Part shown: one piece after another, positions 27,296 to 34,738 of the stretch
How positions within the stretch are numbered: the stretch's first letter is position 1
How the letters are laid out: each line of letters opens with the position of its first letter
From: Henriciella sp.
Lineage (GTDB): Bacteria > Pseudomonadota > Alphaproteobacteria > Caulobacterales > Hyphomonadaceae
Direction of reading: 5' to 3'
Length of the DNA stretch: 64,000 nt
Assembly: GCA_030066975.1 (NCBI GenBank)
Contig: JASJAO010000004.1
Location: 372,001-436,000, forward strand
Notes under the pieces: model-generated
The model's database searches: none
Seen by the model: only the letters and a program-made list of their open reading frames with translations
Told to the model about the DNA's origin: nothing
Translations under genes and position numbers: made by a program

Positions 27296-27553
27296 ATGGC
27301 CAAAGTCACGATCTACACGCGCCAATTCTGTCCCTACTGCACCCGCGCGTTGAAGCTGCTGAAATCCAAAAATGTGGACATGACCCATATTGATGCGGGC
27401 ATGGACGCAGCAAAGAAAAAGGAAATGGTGCAGCGATCTGGCGGCGCGCGGACCTTTCCGCAAATCTTTGTTGGTGACACCCATATCGGTGGCTGTGATG
27501 ACATGATGGCGCTCGAACGGGCTGGCAAGCTCGACGCGCTATTGGCAGCTTAG
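27296..27553 (+). CDS. grxC: Glutaredoxin 3
   Basis: An 85-residue dithiol glutaredoxin with the CPYC active site (Cys12, Cys15), the cis-Pro stretch RTFPQIFVGD and the glutathione-binding GGCDD. It reduces disulfides with glutathione in the cytosol. An AAGGA site precedes the ATG. It lies between comF and the DUF1178 gene, a conserved alphaproteobacterial order; the nitrilase-family gene often found between them is absent. Confidence 0.95.
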   Translation: MAKVTIYTRQFCPYCTRALKLLKSKNVDMTHIDAGMDAAKKKEMVQRSGGARTFPQIFVGDTHIGGCDDMMALERAGKLDALLAA

Positions 27554-27563
27554 GGTCCGGAAG

Positions 27564-28001
27564 ATGATCCGCTACACGCTCTCCTGCGCAGATTGCAGTG
27601 CTGAGTTTGAGGCCTGGTTCGCCTCCTCAGACGCGTATGACAAACAGGCCAAGGCGGGTCTTGTGTCCTGCGCGGAGTGCGGCGGTCAGAATGTCGGCAA
27701 GGCGATCATGGCGCCTGCTATCAGCGGCACCAAGAAGCAGGGCGCCCCTGACCCTCAAAAAGTGTTTGGCAAGCTTGCCGCAGCGGCGCGTCAACATGTC
27801 TCTGATAATTATGACTATGTCGGCACCGGGTTCGCGGACGAAGCCAAAGCCATGCACTATGGCGATATCGATCATCGCCCGATCTGGGGCGAAACCACGT
27901 CCGACGAGCGCACCGAACTGAAAGAAGAAGGCGTGCCCGCCGAACCCCTGCCGCCGGCCTTTGTCCCACCCAAACCTATCGACAAATCAGACCTGAACTA
28001 G
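27564..28001 (+). CDS. DUF1178 family protein
   Basis: A 145-residue cytosolic protein. The N-terminus has a rubredoxin-like zinc-ribbon pattern (CADCSAEFEAWF and CAECGG), the family hallmark, followed by Ala/Lys-rich helix and a conserved C-terminal EAKAMHYGDIDHRPIWGE block. Role unknown. It is the last gene of comF-grxC-DUF1178, converging on the DUF4402 gene at 28004 with only 2 bp between. Confidence 0.88.
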   Translation: MIRYTLSCADCSAEFEAWFASSDAYDKQAKAGLVSCAECGGQNVGKAIMAPAISGTKKQGAPDPQKVFGKLAAAARQHVSDNYDYVGTGFADEAKAMHYGDIDHRPIWGETTSDERTELKEEGVPAEPLPPAFVPPKPIDKSDLN

Positions 28002-28003
28002 GG

Positions 28004-28501
28004 TCAGGAATAATCGACCGAAACGACATAGCTGCCAATATAGCTGCCGGTCGCCTGATTGACGCCAACGTCCAGAACGGCGCCCACCATAAACTCATCA
28101 TAGCCATCGACCAGTTGCCGGGTCAGTTGAGGCGTGGTGAGGTCGCGGACCTGCAAAGTCGCGCCTCCGGCATTCGACAGCGTGATACTGGTCGGCAGCG
28201 AAATCGTATAAAGCGCGTCACTGGCCCCGGTGACCGAAAACTTGGCCGGGCGATAGGTGCCCGACACGCAGGTCAGCGCTGTACCGCACACGCGCCCGCC
28301 CACCGCATCCAGGGTCACCGTATCTGCGCTCAGCGTGCTCGGCGCGATCGTGCCAAACACCATTTCTTCCCAGGCCATAATCATGATCGGCTGAACGATG
28401 GTTGCCCCAGCCTCACTGCTCGCCTCCCCGGCCAGGGCAGGACTGCCCGATACCAACAGGGCTGACAGGGAAAGAACGAACGGGCGCAGTGTGAGTCTCA
28501 T
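28004..28501 (-). CDS. DUF4402 subunit C of the chaperone/usher-like locus
   Basis: A 165-residue secreted protein (signal peptide ending near ALA-G). It has the DUF4402 features shared by all three subunits here: an early FGTIAP strand, a disulfide-type pair CGTALTC, and the C-terminal ATGSYIGSYVVSVDYS strand. It follows the usher gene after 82 bp, whereas the other two subunits come first, so it could be a minor, tip or anchoring subunit. Only a weak ribosome site is visible. Confidence 0.85.
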   Translation of the reverse strand: MRLTLRPFVLSLSALLVSGSPALAGEASSEAGATIVQPIMIMAWEEMVFGTIAPSTLSADTVTLDAVGGRVCGTALTCVSGTYRPAKFSVTGASDALYTISLPTSITLSNAGGATLQVRDLTTPQLTRQLVDGYDEFMVGAVLDVGVNQATGSYIGSYVVSVDYS

Positions 28502-28583
28502 AAGGTACCGTAGAAGTCGTGCAGTAAAAGGACCAGCTCAGGGTGGCGCGAAAACCTTAAACAAAATTCAACCTGAAGGCGAA

Positions 28584-31337
28584 TTACTTTGGTAAATTGT
28601 CACTCTTTGAGATCTTCTTGTCGGCCTCCGTCTCCGGCAGCAGGATCAGGCTTACACCATACACCGAAGGCGACTGCGGGCTGATGGCCAAACGTTGAGT
28701 ATTGACCGCCAGACCGGTCGTCTGCAGCGCCTTTTCCGCAACCCCAACCGTCAGGTCACCCATCGGCAAACCATCGGCATAGAAATAGCCATCAAACTCT
28801 GTTCGGGTCGTCGCCACCAAGTGACCACGCGCATCGCGAAACTCAATCTCGACACCCGAGACCGGCGCCTGCACCGCGCCATTCTTCAGTTCCAGAATAC
28901 CTTCAACGTCTCCAGTCGATTGAACCGGGGTCAGAATATCAACGACTTGACCCGCGCGGACACTCACGCTCCGCCCGACGCGAAGCGGTTTCAGGAACGG
29001 ATCGTTCAAACTCGATAGCCGCAGTTCCACATTCACCGGCAAACCGGCTGGCACGCCGTCATAAATGACCTGACCGTTCGCATCGCTTGCTTCCGGGCGC
29101 AGGGAATTGCCGACCGTGAACTGGACCCCCTCAAGCGGGGGCTCGCCCGGGTCGAACACACCGTCGCCATCAAGATCATGAAAGACAGTCTGCCGGATCG
29201 CGCCGGAGCGGCTAAGCCCAGGCTGTGCCATCGCTATCTTCCCACTGACCTGATCGCGAAACAGCGACAGAGAGACACCGATCCCGCAGGCCCAGCTGCC
29301 GTCTTCGGTCAGCGACGCATTCCCGGTCAGAACGAAAGTCCGAAACCGCTGTGACCACGAGGCGCTTGCCACGCTCGTCTCTTCGCGTAGATCATGGCTA
29401 AAACTAAGTTGCGCGGTGGAGCGGTTCTCAAACACCCGTTGTGCGCTGAGCGACAGATGCGTGGCTTCCACGGTTTGACCCAGAACATAGCCGACCGAGG
29501 CGCGCACTCTCGATCCGGCAAAGTCCCGCGTCGCCAACAGTTCGCCCCCGGTTTCCGAAGTCACGCGCTTGGCTTCTGTTTCCCAGCGATGGTGCAGACT
29601 GTTGGTCCAGCGATAGCGCCCAACCGCCCCGGAGGCGCGCAGTCTCGCATCATAGCGGCTGAGATCCCCGGTCAGATCTTCCCATGACGCCTCTGCCTGG
29701 ATGGGCACAACCCGGCCTGCGAGCTGAAACTGCGAAGTCAGGCGCGTGGCAGCGGAGCGCTCAATGTGCGACCCATCAAGCCCGGTCACCTTGTTTTCGA
29801 GATCGCCAAAGTCTGTCACCCGCGCGGTCAAGCCTGACACCCGTCCAAGGCGGCGCTGCGCCGAGACCTGAACCGCAGGCGCCCCGCGCAGCGCGCTGCT
29901 CAGCCGAAGCGCGCCATAGGTGTCAAACACAGTCCCAAACAGGCTCGCCGTCACACCACTTGGCTCATCTGTGTCTTCGCGTTCTGCCAACAGTCCGTCC
30001 AACCGCACAGTGAACCGGTCGCTGAGGCCATGCGACACCGTGGCGAAGCCATTCAAAACAGGCTGGTCTATCAGTGACACCTGATCGGGATCTTCCTCGG
30101 CGGTGCGGTCACCGAACAGGCTTTGATTGGCATTCACAAACCCGATCGAAAAAGCGGTTTCATTTTCGGGCGTCAGGTCCGATCCGACAAAATAGCGCAC
30201 GTCACGGCTTTCGGTTTCACCAAAAGGTCCAAACAGACGCACCTGCAGGCGATTGTAGCCTGGGCGCAAAGCGATCGTGTCAAACACATATTCGCCATTC
30301 GCATTTGGCTCAGTGACAAACGCGATCAGGCGACCTTCATCGTAAAGCTCAGCCTCCCATCCATCGGGCAAGGCGCCGCGAATTTCGGTCGTGTCGAAGA
30401 TATCGGCATTCAGGTTAGCCCGATTTGAATAGACGAGACCCGCGCCCGTTCGCCCGCGCGACAAGAGCGACAAAGCCGGGGTCGAGACATCACCGAGCGC
30501 GAAGCGGCGGGCCTTAAGCGGGCTGATCCGGCCGGGCTCGACATCCTGGCGTTCCAGTGAGAAGCGGACCCCGTCAATCATCCGCTCGCGGCTGCTGACC
30601 GTCCGCAAACGCCCTGTCATTTTCAGCAGGTCCCCGGCAACATCGAGGGATAGCGACGTGTCGCCCTGTCCGCCTGAGGCTTGGTCTGTGGCGAGTGAAA
30701 TATCGGCGACCGGCATGCTGATCCATCGGTAGGGATTCTCAACCAGATCATAATTTGGGCCGAGCGCCTCCGGTTCCCTTTCGAGCGCCTCGCGGGCCGC
30801 TGCGCGTTCCAGGCGCGCTTCGATCGGCAACACTTCACGCGGCGTGATGTCTACGCGCAAATCACGCGAGCGATAGTCGACATCAAACGCGAAAATCTCG
30901 CCCAAGACCGTCAATGTCGCGCACCAGCCCTCCGCGGTCTGATTGAAGCCATCCGCGGAAAGTTCCACGCTGTGTCCGGACACCCGCGCGGACTGCGTCT
31001 TAAAGTCGAGATCGAGTGTGCGATCCGGCGTCACGAACCAGCCCGCCGCCATGTCGCCTGAGACCTCAATTGGAAATTCCAGCGCCTCGACCACCGGCGC
31101 TACCGGCAAACACAACCCGCCGTCGGTTTCAAAGCCGGGCAGGGCGTCGAGCAGTTCAAACCCGTTCAGCCGCAAGCCGACAATAGAGAGATCGTCTCGA
31201 CCTGCCCGGGCATTTGCACTCGAGTCGATTTCTGCTTCGCCATCGCCGAACAATACAGCAAATGGGTCCGTCTCGGCGCGCGCTGAAAAACAGGCACACA
31301 GCGCCAGTGCGGTGACTATGATTGACCGGAAACGCAT
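28584..31337 (-). CDS. Usher-like outer-membrane assembly protein
   Basis: A 917-residue protein with a signal peptide (ending near ARA-E). The N-terminal domain (about 45-175) contains LRLNGFELLDALPGF and a GWFV/LDLDF pattern similar to ushers of alternative, CS1-like fimbriae rather than FimD. A long beta-barrel region (about 200-720) follows, including DTTEIRGALPDGWEAELYDEG-type usher sequence. The C-terminal 190 residues hold an SdrD-B-like, calcium-type segment (DLDGDGVFDPGEPPLEGV) and a carboxypeptidase-regulatory-like Ig domain. It would form the pore that assembles the DUF4402 subunits at the surface. No good ribosome site is visible. Confidence 0.8.
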   Translation of the reverse strand: MRFRSIIVTALALCACFSARAETDPFAVLFGDGEAEIDSSANARAGRDDLSIVGLRLNGFELLDALPGFETDGGLCLPVAPVVEALEFPIEVSGDMAAGWFVTPDRTLDLDFKTQSARVSGHSVELSADGFNQTAEGWCATLTVLGEIFAFDVDYRSRDLRVDITPREVLPIEARLERAAAREALEREPEALGPNYDLVENPYRWISMPVADISLATDQASGGQGDTSLSLDVAGDLLKMTGRLRTVSSRERMIDGVRFSLERQDVEPGRISPLKARRFALGDVSTPALSLLSRGRTGAGLVYSNRANLNADIFDTTEIRGALPDGWEAELYDEGRLIAFVTEPNANGEYVFDTIALRPGYNRLQVRLFGPFGETESRDVRYFVGSDLTPENETAFSIGFVNANQSLFGDRTAEEDPDQVSLIDQPVLNGFATVSHGLSDRFTVRLDGLLAEREDTDEPSGVTASLFGTVFDTYGALRLSSALRGAPAVQVSAQRRLGRVSGLTARVTDFGDLENKVTGLDGSHIERSAATRLTSQFQLAGRVVPIQAEASWEDLTGDLSRYDARLRASGAVGRYRWTNSLHHRWETEAKRVTSETGGELLATRDFAGSRVRASVGYVLGQTVEATHLSLSAQRVFENRSTAQLSFSHDLREETSVASASWSQRFRTFVLTGNASLTEDGSWACGIGVSLSLFRDQVSGKIAMAQPGLSRSGAIRQTVFHDLDGDGVFDPGEPPLEGVQFTVGNSLRPEASDANGQVIYDGVPAGLPVNVELRLSSLNDPFLKPLRVGRSVSVRAGQVVDILTPVQSTGDVEGILELKNGAVQAPVSGVEIEFRDARGHLVATTRTEFDGYFYADGLPMGDLTVGVAEKALQTTGLAVNTQRLAISPQSPSVYGVSLILLPETEADKKISKSDNLPK

Positions 31338-31388
31338 TGTGGTTTTGGAGCGCGTGCCGGTCTTCTACGCGGCGCCCGTGCGCTGTTC

Positions 31389-32216
31389 CTATTGCAGTCT
31401 TGTGGTCAGGGACGCGATCGTGCCAGGCGCAGAAGGATCTGAAGAGACATAGTCAATTCGGATATCCTTGCCGGTCAGGCTCTGACGAATCTCGTCGGGC
31501 AGGGGCAGCATCACATCCCGCTCGGTATTCGGCGTGTAAAGCGCAATGCCGCGTGCGAAATAGACCGGCTCGCGTTTGTCATCGACGAAGATCTTGATGT
31601 CGCCATAGGTGGACCGGTTGCCACTGCGATTAAGACGGGCGACCAGGACCGTCTCGCCTTCATTTGAAGAGGGACGCAGTTCGGTATGCTCGATCTCGAC
31701 CTCGGCCGACAGGTCTCCCATGCGGAAGATCACGGGTATGGTGATCGAGCGGATGGCGATCAATTGGATGGACAGTGTGTCGCTTTCAGTGTCCGACAGG
31801 CTTTCGAGCGTGCGACCGGCGCTGAGCGGCGCAGCCATCAGGCGCAAGTGCGAGCGGTACTCGCCCGGCTCCAGGTCCGGGTTCAGCATCGCTGAGACGC
31901 GAATGGTCTGACGCTCACCGGGTTCAAGCAGGATCCGCCGCGGCGAGAACCGGATAAAGTCCTTGGCAAACAGCTCGTCGGCTTCTGCCGTGGTCACTTC
32001 TTCCATTGATCCGTCCAGCAGCATCCGCCGGTTTTCGATACTGACCCGGAAGGCGGCTTCTTCATCGCCTTTGTTAACGACGACCAGTTCCGTCGATCGC
32101 TCTGACCGATCGAGCTCGACACGCGTTGGCGCGATCAGGACCTCAGCCGTTGCGGCGGGCACAAGCGCCGTTGCGGCAAAAGCAAGCGAGGCAAACAGGG
32201 GGGAGAAGCGGATCAT
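31389..32216 (-). CDS. Periplasmic pilus chaperone (PapD-like)
   Basis: A 275-residue secreted protein. The start MIRFSPLFAS has AAGGA upstream and a signal peptide ending at ATA-E. The N-terminal Ig domain begins VLIAPTRVELDRSERSTELVVVNKGDEEAAFRV, as in PapD-type chaperones, and FIRFSPRRILLEPGERQTIRV is the family's F1-G1 region. The second domain runs from about 150. It would hold DUF4402 subunits by donor-strand complementation and hand them to the usher 51 bp downstream. Confidence 0.85.
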   Translation of the reverse strand: MIRFSPLFASLAFAATALVPAATAEVLIAPTRVELDRSERSTELVVVNKGDEEAAFRVSIENRRMLLDGSMEEVTTAEADELFAKDFIRFSPRRILLEPGERQTIRVSAMLNPDLEPGEYRSHLRLMAAPLSAGRTLESLSDTESDTLSIQLIAIRSITIPVIFRMGDLSAEVEIEHTELRPSSNEGETVLVARLNRSGNRSTYGDIKIFVDDKREPVYFARGIALYTPNTERDVMLPLPDEIRQSLTGKDIRIDYVSSDPSAPGTIASLTTRLQ

Positions 32217-32235
32217 GGTCAGGTCCTTTTGGAGG

Positions 32236-32802
32236 CTATTGATATTCAACGGTGATAGTAAATGTGCCCGTATAGCTTCCACGGGGCTGGTTCGGTTTAA
32301 CCTCCAGGGTCGCACCGACATTGAAGCGGGAGATGCCGGACGAGCGCAGCCGCTGCCAACCGCGCCATTCAGTGTCATTGCCGCTGCCAGCGCCGACAAA
32401 TGTATCGACGGTCATGAAGTTTCCGGACCCGTCCGTGATCTGGATCGAACCCGGGTCTAGAATATTGACATGTTGAAGCGGTGTTCCGGTGACGGTGAAG
32501 CGGGCTCGGGTCCCATTCTCCAGACACACCAGATTAGTCCCGCAAATAGAAGAATTATTGCTGCCGCGGCGCACACTGACGCTGCCAAACTCGGTCATGT
32601 TCGGGGCAATGGTGCCGAAATGAAGGTCCTGTCTCTTGGTCAGGGTCAGGCCGTTGATAATGATGGCGCCGGCATTGCCCTCAAAGTCAGGGTCGGCTGA
32701 ACCACCTGCAATATCGGCATCACCGACATCCGCGCTGGCGCCCGCAACACAGAAACAGATCGCAAACAGACCGGTCGTGAGAGATTTATTGAAGTTTATC
32801 AT
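32236..32802 (-). CDS. DUF4402 subunit B
   Basis: A 188-residue secreted protein (start MINFNKSLTT with GGAGA; signal peptide ending near ASA-D). It has the DUF4402 pattern: HFGTIAPN, the pair CGTNLVC, and the final strand RGSYTGTFTITVEYQ. It is longer than the other two, with an acidic, Gly-rich insert at the mature N-terminus. It lies between subunit A (66 bp) and the chaperone (19 bp). Confidence 0.85.
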   Translation of the reverse strand: MINFNKSLTTGLFAICFCVAGASADVGDADIAGGSADPDFEGNAGAIIINGLTLTKRQDLHFGTIAPNMTEFGSVSVRRGSNNSSICGTNLVCLENGTRARFTVTGTPLQHVNILDPGSIQITDGSGNFMTVDTFVGAGSGNDTEWRGWQRLRSSGISRFNVGATLEVKPNQPRGSYTGTFTITVEYQ

Positions 32803-32868
32803 GTCGGATTCTCCGATCGGGAAGATCGCGGGCCCGGAGAGGGCGGCCGGGCCCGGATCAATGTACAC

Positions 32869-33360
32869 TTACTGATACTCAACCGTGACAGCGAAGGTCC
32901 CGGTATATTCGCCAGTGGCCTGATTGGCCGCGACGTTCAGTTGTCCGCCGACCGTGAATGTGTCGGTGCCCGCGACCAGCGTCCCGGTTGACTTCGATCC
33001 AGTGAAGGCGTCGACAGTCATGGAACCGCCAGCTCCATTGCTGATGGAGACTGAGCTTGGCAGTGTGATCGTGTAAGTCTGGTCGGCTTCACCCGCGACG
33101 CTGAACGCAGCGGCGGTGTGATCAGCTGTCAGACAGGTCAGTTCAGACCCACAGGCTTTCGCACCAGCTGTCGACACAACAACGGTATCGCCATTGGTGA
33201 AGCTCGGCGCGATTGTGCCGAAGTAAAGCGCGGTCGTGTTGGTAACTTGCAGCGGCGATACAATCTCAGCACCAGCTGTAGAGTTTGCATCTGCGGCAAG
33301 CGCTGGCGCAGACATAAGAGCTGCGGCTGAAGCCAGCGCAAGGAGTTTAAGTTTGGTCAT
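32869..33360 (-). CDS. DUF4402 subunit A (probable main subunit)
   Basis: A 163-residue secreted protein with a signal peptide (MTKLKLLALAS to ALA-A). It shows YFGTIAPS, the disulfide pair CGSELTC, a Gly/Ser/Thr-rich body and the C-terminal strand ATGEYTGTFAVTVEYQ. First position in the operon and small-residue-rich composition suggest the major structural subunit, by analogy with other fimbrial operons. ATG 33360 follows GGTGGA; an upstream in-frame start adds 4 residues. Confidence 0.87.
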   Translation of the reverse strand: MTKLKLLALASAAALMSAPALAADANSTAGAEIVSPLQVTNTTALYFGTIAPSFTNGDTVVVSTAGAKACGSELTCLTADHTAAAFSVAGEADQTYTITLPSSVSISNGAGGSMTVDAFTGSKSTGTLVAGTDTFTVGGQLNVAANQATGEYTGTFAVTVEYQ

Positions 33361-33432
33361 TTTTTCCACCATTCTGTTGGTTGGGTTATTGCTGAAAATC
33401 GAGTTGAAAAATTCCTCGATACAACTTTAAGT

Positions 33433-33467
33433 ATAATATTGGTGTTGATCGAAACTGAACTTGTTCA
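33433..33467 (-). promoter_or_regulatory. Candidate promoter/operator of the DUF4402 operon
   Basis: In an A+T-rich stretch about 70-110 bp upstream of subunit A, TATTAT (minus strand, 33433-33438) could be a -10. An inverted repeat TGAAC-TT-GTTCA (33456-33467) lies at the -35 distance. The -35 itself is poor, so activator control is possible. The remainder of 33361-33622 shows nothing else clear. Confidence 0.3.
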
Positions 33468-33622
33468 ATTAAATTTCACGGACCCACTGAAAATGCTGAG
33501 TTTTCTTTATAGAACAGAGCTGTAGGCGCTGGGTCTGACGTCCCGGATTACCGCCCCCTGACCCTTGACAATCTGACGGGGCGAGCGCCTCTGAGGGAAG
33601 CACGTGCGAACTTGGGGAAGCC

Positions 33623-34738
33623 ATGAATTCGAACGTTTCAGCCACTTGGATCATCGCAACCGGTGTGATCATCGCGCTGCTTTATCTTGGGCGCGCCATC
33701 CTGGCGCCTTTCGCGATCGCTGTGTTCCTGTTCCTGATCATGGAAGGGTTCGCGCGCCTGATCAGTGAGAAGGTGGAACCCGTGCCGCTGAACCTCTCAA
33801 GAGTTGTGTCCATCATACTGGTCGTGGCAGGATTTGTCGCCTTTCTGGCCTTAATGGCGGCAGGCATCGCCCAGTTCGGGTCGCAAGCCGGTCTCTACGA
33901 AGCGCGGATCAATCAATTGATCAGCGATGTGTACAGTCTGTTTCGAATGGATTCAGCCCCCACGCTGACAGAGCTGCTGCTGAACGAATCCGGCCAGCGC
34001 CTGTTCGCCGCGATTGCCGCCGCGACCCAGAGCCTGACCGGTGATCTTGTCCTGATCCTGATCTATATCGCCTTCCTGTTTCTGGCCCAGTCGGCCTGGC
34101 CGGAGAAACTGAACCGGATTTTTCCCGATCAGGACGAACGCCAGCGGGTCAAAGATGTGGGCGATCGCGCGCGCTCGGGCATTGAGACCTATTTGTGGAC
34201 CCAGACCGTGATCAGCGCGATGATCACGGTCCTGACCTATATCACCCTGATTGTGCTGGGCGTCGACAACGCGCTGTTTCTGACCGCGCTGATCTTCGTC
34301 TTGAATTTCATCCCCACGATCGGGTCCATCGTTGCGGCCTTGATCCCGCCTCTGTTTGCGCTTGTCCAACCGGAGGTCGCAGACTGGATACCCGGAACCG
34401 CGCCGCACGACAGCTACGTGTTTGCAGGCCTGGTCTTCGTCGGTGTGAGCTTCTGGCAGTTCTCCATCGGCAACTTCATTCAGCCACGGATGATGGGTGA
34501 CACGCTGAACCTGTCAGCCCTGGTTGTGTTGCTCAGTTTGGCGGTCTGGGGTGCGATCTGGGGGATTGCCGGAATGTTTCTTTCCGCTCCCCTGACCGTG
34601 GTCATGATGATCCTGTTTGCTCAGAATCCCTCGACCCATTGGATCGCGATTTTACTATCGGCAAACGGGCGTCCAGTGCCTCCGAAACTCGCTAAAGTAG
34701 CAAATAGTGAGGAGGAAAAAACGGCATCTGCGATGTAA
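33623..34738 (+). CDS. AI-2E family transporter-like membrane protein
   Basis: A 371-residue inner-membrane protein of the AI-2E (PerM/TqsA) family. Hydrophobic segments occur at about 8-45, 60-85, 150-175, 200-260 and 300-340, with the conserved LNFIPTIGSIVAALIPP stretch. Family members export small molecules or act as Na+/H+ antiporters; the substrate here is unknown. GGGGAA precedes the ATG. It is transcribed away from the fimbrial operon and converges on gdhZ. Confidence 0.88.
   Translation: MNSNVSATWIIATGVIIALLYLGRAILAPFAIAVFLFLIMEGFARLISEKVEPVPLNLSRVVSIILVVAGFVAFLALMAAGIAQFGSQAGLYEARINQLISDVYSLFRMDSAPTLTELLLNESGQRLFAAIAAATQSLTGDLVLILIYIAFLFLAQSAWPEKLNRIFPDQDERQRVKDVGDRARSGIETYLWTQTVISAMITVLTYITLIVLGVDNALFLTALIFVLNFIPTIGSIVAALIPPLFALVQPEVADWIPGTAPHDSYVFAGLVFVGVSFWQFSIGNFIQPRMMGDTLNLSALVVLLSLAVWGAIWGIAGMFLSAPLTVVMMILFAQNPSTHWIAILLSANGRPVPPKLAKVANSEEEKTASAM

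Follow-up and report, generated by a model that had tools for sequence, protein, structure and literature searches.

Chaperone-usher systems are the closest described relatives of the locus reported here. They comprise the archaic (sigma) type, e.g. Csu of Acinetobacter baumannii, the alternative (alpha) type, with ECP and CFA/I, and the classical type, with type 1 and P pili and their ushers FimD and PapC. In PMC4654587, a chaperone proline is described as invariant in the superfamily, Pro60 and Arg89 of EcpB are named, and a domain 1 arginine equivalent to CsuC/EcpB Arg89 is given as a trait of the non-classical (archaic and alternative) chaperones. The DNA analysed here (the window) is a stretch of 64,000 nucleotides (nt) from Henriciella sp., positions 372,001 to 436,000 of contig JASJAO010000004.1, in which five genes at 28004-33360 encode three proteins of the Pfam family DUF4402 (S1, S2 and S3), a PapD-like chaperone and an usher.

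A first reading of this DNA from its letters (the sequence-only reading) held fibres of this type to be little characterised. This agrees with the literature searched, mostly outside subscription journals, in which DUF4402 (PF14352) was not mentioned and no description of such an usher branch was found for Alphaproteobacteria, Hyphomonas, Sphingomonas or under new usher clades; an earlier description is possible.

A probable pilus operon with DUF4402 subunits

The five minus-strand open reading frames (ORFs) were confirmed, and the full secretion-assembly unit proposed by the sequence-only reading is supported. The locus is very probably a complete pilus operon from a deep and as yet unassigned branch of the chaperone-usher pathway, with the DUF4402 proteins as its pilins. 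Direct support comes from the genes, the predicted usher fold, profile kinship, conserved chaperone residues and gene linkage. The features, in the order of transcription, are as follows.

32869..33360, minus strand: S1, DUF4402 subunit, first gene and probable major pilin (Pfam DUF4402 E 1.3e-31; AlphaFold2 predicted local distance difference test score, pLDDT, 96.1; PDB fold matches)
32824..32859, minus strand: GC-rich hairpin in the S1-S2 interval (folding of 91 nt of RNA, z -2.1)
32236..32802, minus strand: S2, a probable minor subunit (DUF4402) whose N-terminal tail is longer (Pfam DUF4402 E 3.7e-29)
31389..32216, minus strand: periplasmic PapD-like chaperone of non-classical type (PapD_N E 0.007; P92, R121 and Y227 kept)
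28584..31337, minus strand: usher, outer-membrane assembly pore of 917 amino acids (aa) with a signal peptide (AlphaFold2 and Foldseek, 3rfz_B FimD; profile match to three usher groups)
30777..31193, minus strand: usher N-terminal domain, possibly copper-amine-oxidase-N1-like rather than FimD-like (domain-only profile comparison; a paralogue matches Cu_amine_oxidN1)
29256..30710, minus strand: usher barrel region, 24 strands of at least 8 residues outside the plug (strand count on the model)
30186..30395, minus strand: usher plug domain, inserted after barrel strand six (model strands; alignment to the TcfC part of an alternative usher)
28635..29237, minus strand: usher C-terminal immunoglobulin (Ig)-like domains of SdrD_B/CarboxypepD_reg type (Pfam SdrD_B E 4.8e-10)
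28004..28501, minus strand: S3, DUF4402 subunit after the usher, a diverged relative of S1 (Pfam DUF4402 E 4.7e-26; long branch nearest S1)

Among the Pfam families in question, DUF4402 was recovered on all three subunits, while PapD_N stayed below cut-off and no usher model was matched. NCBIfam named none of the five proteins above cut-off.

The usher is predicted to fold like FimD and PapC

A search of named genome records for relatives of the usher gave 36 loci (cited below by L numbers) from 86 candidate stretches. The usher alignment (A9) comprised the window usher and 28 of these 36; partial or long forms were dropped (L095, L098, L101, L104, L107, L108, L109 and L111). The mature window protein was modelled by AlphaFold2 with this 29-row alignment, giving a mean pLDDT of 84.8 and a predicted template modelling (TM) score of 0.68. 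When the model was compared with the PDB by Foldseek, the first 18 places were all taken by FimD or PapC (E 2.3e-31 to 1.6e-13), 3rfz_B FimD being the best match at 2.3e-31; SdrD stood in 19th place, presumably through the C-terminal domains of the usher. Residues 180-675 of the model contain 28 strands of at least 8 residues, four of them in an insertion at 294-363, six before it and 18 after it; six strands, a plug and 18 strands is the layout of PapC. The sequence-only reading had made its case depend on a barrel in this protein, and the model has one, of 24 long strands. The predicted protein thus shows the large barrel, plug, and N- and C-terminal domains of the superfamily.

No usher model in Pfam or NCBIfam matched the window usher, and none of the 29 members matched PF00577, PapC_N, PapC_C, TcfC or CooC_C at E 0.01. 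As positive controls, the alternative-type usher L018 from the same genome matched TcfC (6e-18) and CooC_C (7e-9), and two archaic-type ushers of the order matched PF00577 (7e-29 and 1e-37). The C-terminal part of the window usher matched SdrD_B above cut-off (40.1 against 29.7 bits), as expected from the sequence-only reading; at E 0.01, SdrD_B was found in 27 and CarboxypepD_reg in 28 of the 29 members.

Searches of PDB sequences with the usher or S1 as single proteins gave nothing useful, and the usher profile retrieved only SdrD- and UafA-type B domains from the PDB at E < 0.01. When single sequences were compared with the usher profile by hhalign, L018 was the sole match (1.2e-4); EcpC (0.01), FimD (0.056), LptD, FhuA and BamA lay at or near their reversed controls. 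Single sequences being uninformative, profile-profile comparison was used instead. The L018 usher itself (L018:5577-8084, plus strand, contig C5) has several small proteins with signal-like starts nearby, and the strain probably has a second chaperone-usher system there.

Kinship of the usher to the known groups

The usher-family profile was compared with reference profiles of archaic (nine sequences), alternative (seven) and classical ushers (six), with column-reversed profiles as controls. The result showed matches to the archaic (6.9e-18; reversed 0.2), alternative (3.5e-14; reversed 0.046) and classical ushers (2.1e-10; reversed 0.0033). By the same yardstick the alternative ushers matched the archaic at 2.2e-19 and the classical at 1.6e-13, and the archaic matched the classical at 1.1e-48, implying that the ushers of DUF4402 loci are about as distant from the others as the alternative clade is. 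The archaic whole-protein match starts at column 46, inside the N-terminal domain.

An unrooted tree was built from a MAFFT alignment of 41 ushers, including 19 of the 29 rows of A9. Each of the four usher sets lay on one side of a branch (support 99-100), and the branch to the ushers of DUF4402 loci was the longest of the four (0.78 + 0.21 across the root as drawn). The aligned proteins lie very far apart, with an unusual composition in many rows and with long branches flagged. On these sequence comparisons four usher groups are credible, with their order and root not settled; the ushers of DUF4402 loci may form the fourth group, and the alternative clade may be its sister.

These ushers could instead be ordinary members of the alternative (alpha) clade that have drifted past the Pfam models. 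The alternative match spans 616 columns, and the plug lines up with the TcfC part of an alternative usher; both would fit this, as would a branch of support 99 that separates archaic and classical from alternative and DUF4402-locus ushers, the tree being unrooted. However, TcfC and CooC_C are found in none of the 29 members and yet in the alternative usher of the same genome, the archaic profile match is the stronger one, and a further branch of support 99 sets the seven alternative ushers, EcpC included, apart from the ushers of DUF4402 loci. Membership of the alternative clade is therefore unlikely; a sister relation may hold.

The N-terminal domain of the usher

The sequence-only reading had found the usher N-terminal domain unlike that of FimD. 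The domain-only profile comparison bears this out, the match to classical ushers (0.049; reversed 0.059) being no better than chance. The values were 0.022 for alternative ushers (reversed 0.16) and 0.0017 over 35 residues for archaic ushers (reversed 0.38). Against the N-terminal domain of a second protein family of the same bacteria the domain gave 2.9e-5 over 101 residues (reversed 0.54); the profile of that family consists of two complete rows and eight truncated at locus ends, five of the ten being left in this test. Archaic and classical N-terminal domains scored only 3e-4 against each other in the same test. One member of the second family matches Cu_amine_oxidN1 above the cut-off of 24.2 bits (27.7) and one just below it (22.3); the same model is matched by individual relatives of the window usher at E 0.001 and 0.0028. 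These results tentatively suggest that the usher domain may be closer to Cu_amine_oxidN1 than to known usher domains. A true replacement of the domain is a possibility, against which weigh the archaic match beginning inside the domain and the weak archaic-classical score.

In the window genome the second family is represented by a protein of ~1015 aa (L160:2933-5977, minus strand, contig C23) with Cu_amine_oxidN1 and SdrD_B domains, whose middle part has a match to the usher family (E 1.6e-18) starting at column 420; relatives were found at L161, L037, L038, L041-L045, L047 and L048. No chaperone or DUF4402 match was found beside the second-family genes in the fetched flanks, and the protein is perhaps an usher-derived pore without a pilus.

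Conserved residues of the chaperone

The chaperone alignment (A8) comprised the window protein and 27 of 36 chaperone matches. P92 and Y227 are kept in all 28 members and R121 in 26; position 201 is R or K in 26. PapD_N matched 14 of the 28 at E 0.01 or better, and the chaperone profile matched FimC (E 0.009) and CupB2 (0.025) in the PDB weakly. In an hhalign comparison with K-12 EcpB (E 0.0069; reversed 0.61), residues 80 and 109 of the precursor, corresponding to Pro60 and Arg89 if the signal peptide is 20 residues long, fell on P92 and R121, and the comparison with EcpE (1.7e-5; reversed 0.33) again placed an arginine at R121. Y227 and R/K201, in domain 2, may make up the remainder of the carboxylate anchor. 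In addition, R32, present in 27 of the 28 members, pairs with a FimC arginine in an alignment (E 0.0012), so that the family may combine classical and non-classical features.

The DUF4402 subunits

Apart from S1, S2 and S3, no DUF4402 match was found in the 3.57-Mb genome of the source Henriciella sp. All three carry FGTIAP, CGxxLxC and a matching C-terminal strand which, with the Pfam matches listed above, upholds the view of the sequence-only reading that they are paralogues. The first subunit of the Henriciella locus L076 is 77% identical to S1, and the nearest rows to S2 are from L076 (67% identical) and L078. The S2 orthologue at L076:5560-6135 (= L012:3548-4123), from a metagenome-assembled genome (MAG) of Henriciella, has unrelated residues in place of the last strand, as from a frame change.

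The three subunits were aligned with 42 of 46 DUF4402 matches (E < 1e-3; alignment A7). Positions 7, 9 and 11 of the N-terminal extension are hydrophobic in 38, 39 and 38 of the 45 proteins, and positions 6, 8 and 10 in only 4, 11 and 6, an alternation suggesting a donor-strand-like pattern. The last strand also alternates; 31 of 45 have Tyr at -2 and 36 have Gly at -14, and these two residues are the signature of classical pilins. The two cysteines of the pair are kept in 25 and 26 of 45, and F25 in 44. S1 was modelled as a single chain, and the best 30 of 389 PDB fold matches of this model are chaperone-usher subunits or adhesins (Caf1, the PapG pilin domain, CfaB, Csu, Fim and Pap). Complete Ig domains, which the sequence-only reading had named as evidence against a fibre-assembly system, were thus not what the prediction suggested, the single-chain model resembling chaperone-usher subunits. 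A search of PDB sequences with the subunit profile found nothing.

A hairpin of other sequence also follows the first subunit gene in L076 (z -4.0) and L078 (z -2.4). Its presence in three loci suits S1 as the highly made first subunit, and the element between S1 and S2 is a possible attenuator or mRNA-stabilising element; Rfam had no match in 27500-34000.

Caf1, which gives the best fold matches, is the subunit of a chaperone-usher system that forms a capsule. The locus might likewise be an exporter of usher type, with a capsule-like coat or short oligomers displayed and no long pili made, and the lack of a two-domain protein among the three DUF4402 matches of the genome is in line with this; three subunits with the same N- and C-terminal features and a hairpin after the first gene nevertheless suit a polymer, and Caf1 itself polymerises by strand exchange. 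We hold such an exporter to be unlikely and favour pili.

A special tip or anchor role for S3, put forward in the sequence-only reading, was not supported. Both the N-terminal extension and the C-terminal motif of S3 are normal. None of the 45 subunits in the comparison is its orthologue, and its branch, a long one, is closest to S1. In L076 and L078 the usher is not followed by a DUF4402 gene (the contig of L077 ends there); elsewhere it is, e.g. in L093, L106 and L228. The lack of an orthologue and the long branch nearest S1 make S3 appear, from sequence, to be a variable extra subunit, a diverged copy of S1. As a tip adhesin S3 was rejected: an extra N-terminal part before DUF4402 was found in L029, L031 and L049, and none in the window genome. 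The proteins in question are of ~337 aa, with the DUF4402 part C-terminal after a further N-terminal part (L029:304-1314, L031:4265-5284 and L049:1498-2511); those of L029 and L031 stand directly after an usher and are candidate tip adhesins.

Gene linkage and distribution

Starting from the usher, 35 of 36 loci have a chaperone no more than 1.2 kb away; in the remaining one, L104, the contig starts immediately ahead of the usher. A DUF4402-like gene was recognised in 27 of the 36 (weakly so in L099 and L101). The reverse test starts from the Pfam model and is independent of the usher alignment. It took one locus from each of 15 other alphaproteobacterial genomes with an above-cut-off DUF4402 match, four genomes with only weaker matches standing outside the count; usher and chaperone were found nearby in 12 of 15, the usher being split into two ORFs in L225.

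Usher relatives occur in 7 of 105 genomes of the taxonomic family, in 45 of 299 of the order and in 59 of 397 of the phylum. In the order, 18 match at E < 1e-20 (one partial) and the other 27 have mostly short matches to the C-terminal half of the usher; in the phylum, 13 match below 1e-100. According to their record titles, the named loci stem from Henriciella, Hyphomonas, Aquisalinus and many Sphingomonadales, from Thalassomonas, Oleiphilus, Pseudoalteromonas, Psychromonas, Colwellia and their kin, and, for a few MAG loci, from Krumholzibacteriota, Gemmatimonadales and Endomicrobium, going by the title only and with binning as deposited. In L090, L092 and L097 (Krumholzibacteriota and Gemmatimonadales MAGs by title), an ORF of 707-717 aa of unassigned role lies just after the usher. 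Genome G586 (0.9 Mb) has ten DUF4402 matches on eight contigs, with no usher at the one locus examined (L226).

Several results weigh against a pilus operon. The usher model superposes loosely on its 18 matches (TM 0.28-0.50 by query length; root-mean-square deviation 9-20 A). None of the 389 matches of the S1 model passes a Foldseek E of 0.001 (best 5.3e-3), and TM by query length is 0.22-0.48 for the first 30. The N-terminal part of S1 is confidently placed from residue 11 on in the single chain, which could mean a self-contained fold. The donor-strand alternation fails at both ends, position 5 being hydrophobic in 15 and position 12 in 40 of 45, and profile comparison of DUF4402 with EcpA yielded no match (E 0.11). 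The window chaperone matches PapD_N at only 16.8 against a cut-off of 23 bits. Finally, nine of the 36 usher loci, seven of them titled Alteromonadales or kin, have no recognisable DUF4402 gene, and three of the 15 DUF4402 loci have no usher.

The confident single-chain model and the missing sequence link between DUF4402 and solved pilins would be expected if the subunits were complete Ig domains secreted by the barrel through another route. This would leave the pairing with a PapD-type chaperone, seen from both sides of the linkage test, unexplained, and the subunit C-terminus is of the strand type that meets the chaperone in known systems. We thus regard secretion of complete domains as highly improbable, and a pilus operon as the better account.

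Start sites and genomic surroundings

S1 starts at ATG 33360, with another in-frame start at 33372. The S2 ORF opens at GTG 32868, and the ATG at 32802 has GGAG upstream. PADLOC gave no match for the usher or chaperone, and GC content did not set the operon apart from its surroundings. The flanking genes, from reading their sequences, are presumably ComF-like, glutaredoxin, DUF1178, an AI-2E-type transporter and a large glutamate-dehydrogenase-like gene. The last two occur together in 27 loci from 28 other Henriciella genomes (one genome gave no match), and S1 and the usher were absent from the fetched flanks of these 27 loci (~1.5 kb upstream; 1.0 kb in L172; 30 bases in L194, which is uninformative). 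In L183 and L185 the ComF, glutaredoxin, DUF1178, transporter and dehydrogenase genes stand in the window order with the operon missing. The usher recurs in just one further Henriciella genome, G026, at a different site; the transporter locus of G026 (L171) is without it. The operon seems to be an accessory unit that is acquired or lost in one piece.

A proposed assembly pathway

In the pilus we propose, the subunits would enter the periplasm through their signal peptides, and each, lacking a strand, would be lent the G1 strand of the chaperone. The chaperone would hold the C-terminus of the subunit with its domain 1 arginine and domain 2 tyrosine, as non-classical chaperones do, and the complex would dock at the usher. 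The next subunit would then use its N-terminal extension to displace the chaperone strand by strand exchange, and the growing fibre, with S1 as its likely main subunit, would exit through the 24-strand barrel once the plug moves. The fibre might serve in surface attachment.

Comparison with known systems

The broadest interpretation is that DUF4402 pili are a fourth deep chaperone-usher branch across Alphaproteobacteria, Gammaproteobacteria, Krumholzibacteriota, Gemmatimonadota and Elusimicrobiota, in which the complex-receiving domain of the usher has been replaced by a copper-amine-oxidase-N1-like domain; we judge the case for and against this to be evenly balanced. The analysis offers a likely function, that of pilin, for a Pfam family of unknown function, and indicates that current usher models miss a whole branch of surface-fibre systems, mostly of environmental bacteria and apparently also outside Pseudomonadota. 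If the N-terminal domain truly differs, the branch would be a natural test of how ushers recognise chaperone-subunit complexes.

The system resembles the classical type 1 and P pili in its predicted usher fold and differs from them in the weakest of the three profile matches, an N-terminal domain that matches at chance level, and the non-classical chaperone arginine. With the alternative systems ECP and CFA/I it has usher profile kinship in common and, by the criteria in PMC4654587, a non-classical chaperone; it is unlike them in lacking TcfC and CooC_C in all 29 members, in forming a separate group in the tree, and in that an alternative-type usher lies elsewhere in the same genome, at L018. 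Unlike those of the archaic systems, its subunits match DUF4402 and not SCPU (PF05229, without a match in the genome), and its usher family lacks the PF00577 match of the two archaic-type ushers of the order. With archaic systems such as Csu, however, it shares the gene order subunit-chaperone-usher, the closest of the three usher profiles (6.9e-18), and a chaperone arginine, perhaps also a tyrosine, of the non-classical type.

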